A DNA stretch of 64,000 bases from Acarospora socialis (taxonomy: Eukaryota > Ascomycota > Lecanoromycetes > Acarosporales > Acarosporaceae), in the NCBI GenBank assembly GCA_025617375.2, contig JAMYGW020000001.1:2232001-2296000 (forward strand). Direction: 5' to 3'. Made by a program: the position numbers and the translations under genes. This document shows, in pieces, positions 32,573 to 43,232 of this stretch; position 1 is the first letter of the stretch; the number at the start of each line of letters is the position of its first letter. Under the pieces are notes generated by a model. The model was given only the letters and a program-made list of their open reading frames with translations, did no database searches and had not been told where the DNA came from.

Positions 32573-34429
32573 TTACCAATTATCGAAATTACCAAAACCA
32601 CCAAGCTTCACCTTTTTCGTGGCCGGCTCTCCGGTGGTCTCCTGCTCCCACTCCGCGACAGCCTCGTTCTGGCCGGGGTTGTAGGCATACGATGTCTCGT
32701 TCGCCACGGCAGCTTTCAAGTACTTGCCAACCCCACCTGCACCGGCATCATTGACAACCGTGCCATCTCCCCTAATCCTCTTCCCCGTCCAAGTTGTTCG
32801 CTCATCTTCGCGTCCCCCTTGTTTAACAATCTCCTCCTTCTCCTTCTCTTCCTCATCTTTTTCCCGCTTTTGCTTTTGAAACTCTTCGAAAGGGTCCACG
32901 AAAACGACAACGTCCAGTATCCTGATCTCATCTGTCGGCCGATCGGACGAGTCTGTCGGTGCGTTTTCCAGTTTCGCCAACGTTTCCAAGCCGCCAACAA
33001 CGCGGCCGAATATGGTGTGCTTGCGGTCCAAATGCTTCGCTGGACGATAGGTGATGAAGAACTGGCTGGAGTTGGTGTTCTTGCCCTTGTTCGCCATCGA
33101 CAGCATGCCTCTCGAGTCGTGAGTCAGAGGTCCATCGAACTCGTCATTGAAGTTCTTGCCCCATATGCTAGTCCCGCCCTTGCCGGTTCCGGTCGGATCC
33201 CCGCCTTGGATCATAAAATTCTTGATGTTCCGGTGAAAGGCAACATCTTTGTAGTAGCCTTTCTTGGAGAGCTGTACGAAGTTCCACACAGCCTTTGGTG
33301 CATATTCCGTCTGTAGCTCGACGTTGAGATCGCCCAGATTAGTCTGTATTCGCGCGTAGCCCTTGATCTTGACCCGCTTCGGTCTCAACATGTACTCCTC
33401 GTCGGTTAACAGAGCGCGCTCGCCAGACGTATGCGGTGTCAAGCCCGTGCTTGTGAATGACGCCGCTGCCTTGCCGGTGGTATGTTGCGCGGCATTGTAG
33501 GGTAGCGCGCTGCCTGAATGCGGTGATGATCTCTGCACCTGCGTACCATTCGTCGCTGTGTTAACCGATTTACTGCCCTGTACTAGAGAATTTGTGCTCG
33601 AGTCCTTGCTCCTCTGCTCCCGCGCCTTCGCCACGGCTTCTTTCGCCTTCAAAATCTTTGCCGAACTTCCGAGCGCCTCCTTATTTACATTTCTGCCCGG
33701 ATCGTTTCTCTCCTTCTCTTGGTCTTCCGTTAACGTACTGACACCTTCTTGAAGATATCTGAAAGAGCTCAAATCTCTTCCCTCGAGGTGTTGCGGGTCT
33801 TGTAACGTAATGATGTCCTTCCTCCCAAACTCCTCATCACTAACCAGATCCTTCCACATCTTCGCCTTGACATTTAACCTCTCCACCGTGTCCCACGCAA
33901 AGACGTTCCCAGTGTTCCGCAGGGCAACGATATGCGTGTTGTCCGTGAAGACTTTGAACGTAACAGGATCAACCATCTCGCCTTCGTCGTTCTTCGCAAA
34001 GTTCAGCTTGATGAGCTCGGAGCTCTTCATCGGAAGCCCCGTGACAGGATTGGTGCCGTGTTTCTTGAGCCATGGGAGGATATTGGTGAGGTCGAAAATG
34101 GTGCCGTCGGCTGTGCAGACCGGGTGGGCGAATGGCTGGAGGGATACGGCGCAGAAGTTGAAGGGCAGCCGCTTAAAGGATGCGCCAGCGGCTTTGGACT
34201 TGAGGACAGCGGAGCCGGCACTGGCCGAGTAGGCATCTTCGGAGGCCCACTCCGAATGTGTAATCTGTAGTTGTTTGAGCGTATTAGTTATGTTAGTGTT
34301 TCAAAGGGGGGGTAGGGTAATTTGGTCAAAGAAAGTATTACATATAGCTTGTCCGTTCCTATGGAGTAGTTTACGTTAGTGATGATGTGCAATATGAGCG
34401 CGACATTGATTATGCGCACCTTTCCCCAT
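32573..34429 (-). CDS. cyp8: U-box/cyclophilin peptidyl-prolyl isomerase (PPIL2-like)
   Basis: Three exons on the minus strand: a 10-nt exon 34420-34429, a 17-nt exon 34342-34358, and 32573-34264, with introns of 61 and 77 nt. Together they read MGKGTDKLYITHSEWASEDAY, the hallmark opening of this family, and give 572 residues. A U-box-like region follows (about 30-110: FNFCAVSLQPFAHPVCTADGTIFDLTNILPWLKKHG). The cyclophilin domain lies at about 313-480 with GYYKDVAFHRNIKNFMIQGGD, SSQFFIT and TIFGRVVGG. The C-terminal tail is charged and ends near KKVKLGGFGNFDNW. PPIL2-type proteins are nuclear, associate with the spliceosome and may have E3 activity. The two micro-exons would be missed by simple ORF reading. 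Confidence 0.93.
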
Positions 34430-36693: not shown

Positions 36694-37815
36694 AGTGAAT
36701 CGAATCTTGCGAGTCGCTTGCGGAAAGGCCCGCCGAGGAGTGAGGCTGTAGCTCGCCGAACACCGGATGGCGTCTTACGATGAGTACGTCAGAAGGATAT
36801 CGCAGCCCACAAAGCACTCAACATCTCTTGCTTCTTGTGTCTACGAGTGCTTCCTGAGCCAGCGGAGATTTGTTCGGACGTCGACTGAGTCTTGGGCGGG
36901 GATATCTGCAGTCGCCGAAAGAGCGGCCTTAGAGTCGACGTATACACAAGGATTTCGCTGCAAAGGACAATGCTAGCGATTCAGCGATGACCAACAGCTA
37001 ATCAAGTGTACAAAGAGTATGTCGAAGCAAGTTCCAAGCAGTAAGTAGCTGTCGACGGTCACTGCTTGATTCGACAAGGTAATGGGAGGTGAGCTTTGGC
37101 ACAGCCTCTTGGCTTTGGGCTTCCACGCTTGTCCGCCTGAAGCGTCAGACTCGCCAAGTTAGCGCCGTTCCTGGCCATCGACGTCCGAGCGTCTTCGGTG
37201 ACTAAGGTACCGTAAGTTACCTAAGGTAAATAAAGCAACAATCAATAAGAATTCTTCTGATATCAAAACGTCAATACCATCAACAACAGACAGCTTGGAC
37301 AGCTTCTTAGTATCGTTCTGCATAGACAATCTCCCATGAATGCATTAAGAGCTAAACTCCAAGATTGTCCATATTCGCACTTTGCACGCTCCGTATGAAC
37401 TCCCGCCGTACTCGTACTCGGTCCGCCCTATATCTCTGCCGTTCAAGAAAAAGCGGCCGGCTGACACCTTCATCACCCAGAAGGTCCTGCTAGACTATTC
37501 TTAATAAACAATCTACTCTACTCAATACTCATGTCACTTTCCTTTTCGTCTTCGAAATTTGTAAAGGTCGAAGCCTATGATAGTAATAATGAGTAATACA
37601 TCACCCACCAAATGCCTCAGGTAAACGAGCAATTTTGAGCACTATACTGCGCCGTTCAGTGTGAAATTCATGTAGTGTAGTGCACTACTCGAGTAGATGG
37701 GCACAGCTGTCTAGGGTTACTTGAAATAAATAAGGGATCAATCGTTCAACAACTCAGCTAGCAATCTGAACATTTTTATAAATCTAAATAACGGCAAGCC
37801 AAGATCATCGGAATA
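36694..37815. other. AT-rich intergenic region
   Basis: No gene is supported. The composition becomes AT-rich from about 37200. A decayed copy of part of the 38349-38609 gene lies at about 37545-37645 and is listed separately. Confidence 0.5.
37545..37645 (-). pseudogene. relic copy of the small membrane-protein gene at 38349-38609
   Basis: The block beginning GGTCGAAGCCTATGATAGT at 37566 aligns with GGTTGAAGCCCATGATAGT at 38408. The similarity continues for about 77 nt at roughly 70 percent identity by eye. Many differences are C-to-T or G-to-A in the relic and its frame contains stops. This looks like an old duplicate that has decayed toward AT, possibly by RIP-like mutation. Confidence 0.5.
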
Positions 37816-37835
37816 GGACTTATGGTCTAGTGGTA

Positions 37836-37890
37836 GTGAGTTCATCCTTTGACTCGGTATCTATGGGTCATGTGCCTAACCCATCCGCAG
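37836..37890 (+). other. mRNA-type intron in the D-loop of tRNA-Pro
   Basis: 55 nt, GTGAGT...CCTAAC...CGCAG, the same size and motif pattern as the protein-gene introns of this window. Flanked by AGTGA on both sides (37835-37839 and 37889-37893). Removal restores GGTATGATT of the tRNA-Pro D-arm. Confidence 0.75.
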
Positions 37891-37940
37891 TGATTCTCGC
37901 TTAGGGTCCACCCTGATGCACACTTGCGAGAGGCCCCGCG

Positions 37941-37993
37941 GTAAGGCTTGAATGCCCGAAAGAAGCCTGGATATCGCGACTCACATGTTACAG
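37941..37993 (+). other. mRNA-type intron at the T-stem/T-loop junction of tRNA-Pro
   Basis: 53 nt, GTAAGG...ACTCAC...TACAG. Removal joins T-stem CCGCG directly to the loop TTCGAGT. The 9-mer CGCGGTAAG spans its 5' boundary (37937-37945) and recurs at 38001-38009. Confidence 0.75.
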
Positions 37994-38020
37994 TTCGAGT
38001 CGCGGTAAGTCCCCGATTAC

Positions 38021-38038
38021 TTTTTGCATTACTTTTTT
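38021..38038 (+). terminator. RNA polymerase III terminator
   Basis: T5 at 38021-38025, eight bases after the tRNA end, backed by T6 at 38033-38038. There is no run of four or more T between 37816 and 38013. Confidence 0.75.

Positions 38039-40460: not shown

Positions 40461-43232
<2,772 letters not shown>

Follow-up and report, generated by a model that had tools for sequence, protein, structure and literature searches.

Candidate spliceosomal introns in the tRNA-Pro(AGG) gene and other nuclear tRNA genes of Acarospora socialis

Can a nuclear tRNA gene be interrupted by introns of the kind found in protein genes and still encode a working tRNA? The question is raised by a locus on contig 1 (C1) of the Acarospora socialis assembly (31.1 Mb, 38 contigs), analysed here within a window, i.e. 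the whole 64,000-nt stretch C1:2232001-2296000; coordinates given without a contig name are positions in this window. The best explanation as a whole, to which we assign a probability of roughly 0.87, is that the locus would be a working single-copy tRNA-Pro(AGG) gene, read by RNA polymerase III (Pol III), with two U2-type spliceosomal introns in addition to an intron at 37/38.

Structure of the tRNA-Pro(AGG) locus

The gene lies on the plus strand in four exons, placed by the joined cloverleaf. Exon 1 (37816..37835) provides the 5' acceptor strand and the D arm as far as the D loop, where it is followed by a 55-nt spliceosomal-type intron (37836..37890; GTGAGT..CTAAC..CAG). Exon 2 (37891..37906) holds the remaining D arm, the 5' anticodon stem, the anticodon AGG and G37, and is separated by an ordinary 18-nt tRNA intron at 37/38 (37907..37924; an ARAGORN intron call) from exon 3 (37925..37940), with the 3' anticodon stem, the variable loop and the 5' T stem. 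The second spliceosomal-type intron, of 53 nt (37941..37993; GTAAGG..CTCAC..CAG), falls at 53/54, and exon 4 (37994..38013) completes the T loop, the 3' T stem, the 3' acceptor strand and the discriminator C73. A T5 run at 38021..38025 (plus strand) is the likely Pol III terminator, and a TATA-like TTTATA at 37775..37780 (plus strand), 41 nt upstream of the gene, is a possible promoter element. Of the two internal boxes only the A box is contiguous; intron 2 interrupts the B box at 53/54.

The sequence and coordinates were as originally predicted, and with all three introns removed the exons form a 72-nt molecule called tRNA-Pro(AGG) by ARAGORN. The full pairing claimed for the acceptor, anticodon and T stems was recovered (7/7, 5/5 and 5/5; T loop TTCGAGT), with 3/4 pairs in the D stem. 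When only the 18-nt intron was kept, ARAGORN again called tRNA-Pro(AGG), with an intron at 37; when all three were kept, it called no tRNA. Unaided scans of the window likewise gave 0 tRNAs (ARAGORN) and 0 Rfam matches at the gathering score. Given the tRNA, intron 1 can be placed in one way only, and intron 2 in two equivalent ways, one of which is GT-AG.

Both introns carry the marks of the U2 type, namely GT/AG ends, a branch motif (fixed in advance of the search), and host-like length and signals. A branch site 11 nt before the end had been claimed for both. The measured distances between the branch A and the 3' end are 11 nt (intron 1) and 10 nt (intron 2), so the figure stands for the first intron and not for the second. 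The predicted likeness to protein-gene introns of the window was borne out, with 55 and 53 nt here versus 56, 55, 61 and 77 nt in two genes and 52-68 nt in an open reading frame (ORF) scan. The two genes, both on the minus strand, are a CDC48-family gene with introns of 56 nt (42601..42656; GTAAGT..CCTAAC..TAG) and 55 nt (41054..41108; GTGAGT..TACTAAT..TAG), and a cyclophilin gene (32573-34300) with introns of 61 and 77 nt. After joining, the start of the cyclophilin reads MGKGTDKLYITHSEW, matching the Pleopsidium protein; its best species-named match is Pleopsidium flavum, of the order Acarosporales, class Lecanoromycetes (84% identity over 98% of the query, with nine higher scorers at 89-94%). 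A strict ORF-joining scan of the window gave 9 introns of 52-68 nt versus 2 in the reversed control; a looser scan (106 versus 70 in the reversed control) was set aside as too noisy. Lengths of 53-55 nt are too little for a group I or group II ribozyme core, and the window has no Rfam match at the gathering score.

Chance was assessed with a blind test, in which all GT..branch..AG segments of 46-65 nt on either strand were excised, one or two at a time, before running ARAGORN. Among 623 splice forms of the window (335 plus, 288 minus), six gave a junction-spanning tRNA and all six lay at the Pro(AGG) locus, three being Pro(AGG) and three inferior forms labelled Ala or Val. None of the 785 forms from the reversed and complemented window gave a tRNA. 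Under the placements that the tRNA allows, dinucleotide-shuffled inserts showed GT..branch..AG in 1.0% (intron 1) and 0.8% (intron 2) of 4000 cases, and in 0.9-5.8% for the six other GT introns described below (Arg intron 1 as initially placed), in a test that is lenient because the shuffle retains the end letters, and whose outcome is modest for some introns.

With respect to copy number, a search for other Pro(AGG) copies had been proposed with the original prediction. In a DNA search of the genome, the 198-nt locus matched only itself, which counts, as far as such a search sees, against a repeat-like intron family. The joined 72-nt sequence as a DNA query had no genome match and missed its own locus as well, which makes that result uninformative. 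No intact Pro(AGG) occurred in the 28 places read out of 39 that fit one conserved-arm pattern. A Pro anticodon-arm pattern fitted 49 places, of which the only two with at most one mismatch were read: the window locus and a Pro(CGG) gene. A custom covariance model, built from 12 nuclear tRNAs and 9 copies with random 24-nt inserts, missed the Pro locus under default filters and scored it at 10.6 bits, with a wrong 3' end, when filters were off. So far as DNA can test it, the spliceosomal reading first proposed for these introns is supported.

Two further features of the locus were recorded. The stretch CGCGGTAAG occurs twice in the window, at the exon 3/intron 2 boundary (37937-37945) and inside exon 4 (38001-38009), and is possibly a trace of intron birth by local duplication or a chance product of T-stem sequence. 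The acceptor strand reads GGTAAGTCC, which resembles a consensus 5' splice site.

Interrupted tRNA genes across the genome

The genome was searched with the Rfam tRNA family, a B-box pattern and arm patterns, and stretches around part of the matches were read. Of 1275 first-look candidates, the Rfam search returned scores for only 63. This limit may explain some of its misses, as it scored one of the eight interrupted genes described here. The B-box pattern had 135 matches versus 115 for the reversed pattern, and 92 of the first 100 were read; for further arm patterns, 2 of 31 (the reversed control had more, 86), 17 of 22 and 8 of 16 places were read. In all loci read, 31 clear nuclear tRNA genes were found, 23 of ordinary layout and eight with spliceosomal-type introns, a biased rate in that some searches targeted such arms. 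The ordinary genes have no intron or a single one near 37/38, and comprise Val (CAC, AAC, TAC), Tyr, Gly (TCC and two GCC), His, initiator Met, Arg (CCG, TCT, CCT), Lys (TTT), Ser (GCT, CGA), Leu (CAG, CAA, TAA, TAG), Ala (TGC, AGC, CGC) and Glu (CTC). Tyr, Lys, Leu and some other isotypes were assigned by hand where ARAGORN misjudged the intron.

The original prediction described one gene; on this survey, Pro(AGG) is one of a genome-wide set of interrupted tRNA genes. Besides the window gene, the set includes Pro(CGG) (L081, one intron in the T loop), two Lys(CTT) genes (L055, one intron in the variable loop; L172, one in the anticodon stem), Arg(ACG) (L111, two introns, in the D loop and at 32/33), two Asp(GTC) genes with one intron each at 53/54 (L099, C1:2104100-2104480, minus strand; L102, C3:2464900-2465200) and Ser(AGA) (L164, one intron in the D stem). 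After joining, T and anticodon stems pair 5/5 in all eight genes, and acceptor stems 7/7 in six and 6/7 in both Asp genes. An additional tRNA-type intron is present in six of the eight, first exons measure 17, 20, 24 and 30 nt in four of them, and both Asp(GTC) and both Lys(CTT) genes found in the loci read are interrupted. With at least seven other tRNA genes built in the same way as Pro(AGG), the gain of spliceosomal-type introns by tRNA genes is, on this evidence, a property of the genome.

The ten introns of these eight genes are 51-56 nt long, all end in AG and eight start with GT. A branch-like motif is found in all ten (CTAAC in five, CTAAT in two, and CTCAC, CTGAC and TTAAC in one each), its A lying 10-12 nt from the 3' end, although the search windows for motif and distance bias the set towards look-alikes. 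Their cloverleaf positions vary and none is at 37/38. The D-loop boundaries of Arg intron 1 and of the Ser intron are fixed less closely when the tRNA alone is considered. An initial placement of Arg intron 1 (GTGCCT, 49 nt) was superseded by GTTAGT, 53 nt, on the basis of the blind scan and an intron-less relative. In appearance the ten introns match U2-type spliceosomal introns, and they should function as such; the class of gene that hosts them is new.

The blind splice-and-scan procedure was extended to the fetched nuclear loci (157,786 bases, overlapping loci counted). With GT donors, 1408 forms gave 20 matches and recovered the tRNA at L055, L081, L111, L164 and L172, the anticodon being mislabelled by ARAGORN at L055, L081 and L172 where the 37/38 intron was misjudged. 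With GA donors, 1454 forms gave six matches, comprising both Asp genes and four inferior forms (L055, L111, L172). With GC donors, 1400 forms gave seven matches, only forms of L083 and L111. The reversed control gave no match in 1978 forms. Several matches were not counted: alternative ends of an intact Gly(TCC) gene (L003, L032 and L040, one gene) and of an intact Leu(CAG) gene (L051), the non-best forms of L055, L111, L164 and L172, the GC-donor forms of L083 and L111, and a Leu-like remnant (L152 and L167, one place).

Paralogue comparisons provide intron boundaries and signs of selection from a different direction. An intron-less Arg(ACG) relative (L091, C13:727350-727560, at C13:727424) matches the joined Arg exons without a break over 36 letters (mature positions 13-48), a stretch that spans the junctions after positions 17 and 31, and the ends of the Arg introns are therefore fixed without appeal to splice signals. 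By manual reading, the acceptor and D stems of this relative pair poorly, and it may be a remnant, a retrocopy made from a spliced tRNA, or a gene that is older and never had the introns. The two Asp(GTC) genes, on contigs 1 and 3, are identical over the mature tRNA (72/72), and their introns agree in 44 of 54 alignment columns; both introns retain the ten initial letters, the stretch around CAACTAACAT and the terminal CAG. Such a pattern is what would be expected to remain under selection on exons and splice signals. Both genes share a C4-A69 mismatch in the acceptor stem. Both introns start with GAAAGT, without GT, and the retention of the GA donor in both paralogues makes a working GA-AG intron possible. 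GA donors are used elsewhere, in FGFR genes. The sequence itself shows the structure of the joined tRNA, the splice signals, the single copy of the Pro(AGG) locus, support from paralogues for the junctions and for selection, and the lack of a full bulge-helix-bulge centre.

Proposed pathway, alternatives and related systems

In the proposed pathway, Pol III would transcribe a Pro(AGG) precursor carrying all three introns, from which the spliceosome would take out the two GT-AG introns first, in the nucleus. The joined RNA would then fold into the body recognised by RNase P, tRNase Z and the tRNA splicing endonuclease; the endonuclease would cut the 18-nt intron last, and the halves would be ligated. 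The spliceosome would act first because a split D or T arm prevents formation of the tRNA body that the endonuclease uses for measuring, and the same order is suggested by Lys(CTT) L172, in which the canonical intron lies 7 nt behind the spliceosomal-type one. We infer that Pro(AGG) would be transcribed, that its RNA would pass through the spliceosome in this order, and that the gene would be essential. The B box is split by introns in both Asp genes as it is in Pro(AGG), where the upstream TATA-like box could compensate; among the motifs tested, a TATA-like upstream motif was found in two of the eight interrupted genes.

Within the lineage of this fungus, spliceosomal introns have probably entered Pol III tRNA genes repeatedly, leaving part of the essential tRNA set dependent on the spliceosome, a broader claim that we hold with good though somewhat lesser confidence than the one for Pro(AGG). 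Its extent, in a genome read incompletely, would so far take in all the genes found for Asp(GTC), Lys(CTT), Ser(AGA) and Pro. If this is correct, maturation would require the spliceosome first, followed by the endonuclease-ligase pathway in genes that have a 37/38 intron, and the decoding of several codons would be tied to the capacity of the spliceosome.

Three other accounts of the data were weighed. Spliceosomes normally act on Pol II transcripts, and the introns could be spliceosomal in genes that are now under Pol II control, the tRNA being processed from a Pol II transcript. The split B box in Pro(AGG) and both Asp genes fits such a change of polymerase. Against it, T runs of 4-9 begin 2-14 nt behind seven of the eight genes (the eighth, L111, is cut off by the fetched stretch), and an ordinary layout is seen in 23 of the 31 sibling tRNA genes. 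No T run in any of the ten introns exceeds three, an observation that is weak on its own given that four of five protein introns also lack T4. We regard control by Pol II as unlikely. Less likely still is that the interruptions are introns or insertions in dead or silent copies, with intact genes elsewhere supplying the tRNAs. The partial reading of the genome leaves room for such genes, and the intron-less Arg(ACG) relative and the Leu-like remnant L167 speak in its favour. The stems are nevertheless intact in all eight genes apart from the Asp C-A mismatch and 3/4 D stems, the two genes found for Asp and the two for Lys(CTT) are all interrupted, and the places read hold no intact Pro(AGG); dead copies are made improbable by the state of the stems and by the absence of intact substitutes from the loci read. 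Moreover, the Asp exons are identical while their introns drift, and a one-step insertion would not bring GT, branch and AG into register.

We give the least credence, and very little of it, to ectopic tRNA introns cut by the tRNA splicing endonuclease at bulge-helix-bulge motifs, with GT-AG ends arising by coincidence. A precedent for the positions exists in Cyanidioschyzon merolae, whose tRNA introns, in excerpts of PMC9602550, lie in the D, anticodon and T arms, one of them at 53/54. When intron nucleotides 2-5 were compared with nucleotides 2-5 of the 3' exon, the central 4-bp helix was complete in none of the ten introns; Arg intron 1 comes closest with 3/4 pairs, the other nine having at most 2/4 (1/4 and 2/4 in the Pro(AGG) introns). 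Nor would cleavage by the endonuclease account for the GT/AG ends or for the fixed distance at which the branch motif lies.

Removal by the spliceosome, the reading preferred here, has counterparts in other stable RNAs. An mRNA-type intron is present in U6 snRNA genes of fungi, e.g. Schizosaccharomyces pombe. As here, a spliceosomal intron of about 50 nt sits in a Pol III transcript, with the difference that U6 is a part of the spliceosome, whereas tRNAs are interrupted at many positions in A. socialis. The closest fit is with the spliceosomal introns in the rDNA of lichen fungi, of which those described here would be the counterpart in tRNA genes. According to excerpts of PMC8527467, nuclear rDNA of lichen-forming fungi holds ectopic spliceosomal introns (Bhattacharya et al. 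2000, cited therein; Cladonia grayi), and yeast is able to splice such an intron put into its own rDNA. In both cases mRNA-type introns occupy a stable non-Pol II RNA gene of lichen fungi, and those of rDNA are described in these excerpts as removed by the host splicing machinery; the rDNA introns interrupt an rRNA made by Pol I, whereas those described here interrupt tRNAs, probably made by Pol III, with a tRNA-type intron as well in six of eight genes.

Multiple introns per tRNA gene, by comparison, are known from C. merolae (up to three, with bulge-helix-bulge motifs, in excerpts of PMC9602550 and PMC3978253) and from archaea. The likeness, as far as those excerpts go, lies in several introns per gene in the D, anticodon and T arms, including one at 53/54; the difference lies in their bulge-helix-bulge motifs and cleavage by the endonuclease, versus GT..branch..AG and no complete centre here. 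Pro(AGG) has the ordinary eukaryotic intron at 37/38 as well, but differs from an ordinary eukaryotic tRNA gene in that up to three introns are present, two of them outside 37/38. The tRNAscan-SE 2.0 paper gives one intron as the limit for eukaryotic tRNA genes (excerpts of PMC8450103), and a review contrasts pre-tRNA introns, the province of the tRNA endonuclease, with pre-mRNA introns (excerpts of PMC4390854). Excerpts of PMC11782384 hold no case of spliceosomal introns in tRNA genes, and in the Cladonia grayi genome paper, as excerpted, the word tRNA occurs once only, in an organelle-genome table (PMC6652019). By title or start of abstract, no report of spliceosomal introns in nuclear tRNA genes was seen among the matches listed in full-text searches of open PubMed Central, which holds few subscription journals.

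If confirmed, single tRNAs that depend on the spliceosome and on the tRNA-splicing enzymes, one after the other in a set order, would contradict the textbook separation of mRNA-type from tRNA-type splicing in eukaryotes. The genes would allow tests of the spliceosome on short, structured Pol III transcripts, of how a tRNA gene is transcribed when its B box is split, and of whether lichen fungi have generally relaxed the restriction of splicing to Pol II RNA. Genes of this construction are overlooked by tRNA finders that permit one intron at 37/38.

Other tRNA-like loci

The survey also yielded loci that stand apart from the eight genes. At L083 (C2:2068180-2068480), Arg-like arms enclose a 79-nt, hairpin-rich insert in the anticodon region without usable GT-AG; it was not counted, and may be another kind of interruption or a remnant. 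Stretches with tRNA-like D-arm motifs were noted at L085 (C10:603100-603360, minus strand), L089 (C2:1905690-1906100) and L101 (C1:287080-287400), with B-box motifs too at L085 and L089. No tRNA could be assembled at these three loci, which are perhaps more interrupted or degraded Pol III genes; together with L157, they were left out of the count of interrupted genes.

A repeat dispersed over C1, C3, C11 and C13 (L092, L093, L094, L096 and L097), at least about 130 nt long, has tRNA-like A-box and B-box stretches and complementary ends, and is probably a SINE-like Pol III element. AT-rich, organelle-like tRNA clusters were found at C1:1-9000 (L039) and C8:1930800-1932263 (L049), each at one end of a long contig, and on contigs C15, C16, C33 and C38. 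Contig C35 is GC-rich (0.625), carries a tRNA-Ser(GGA), and may be foreign.
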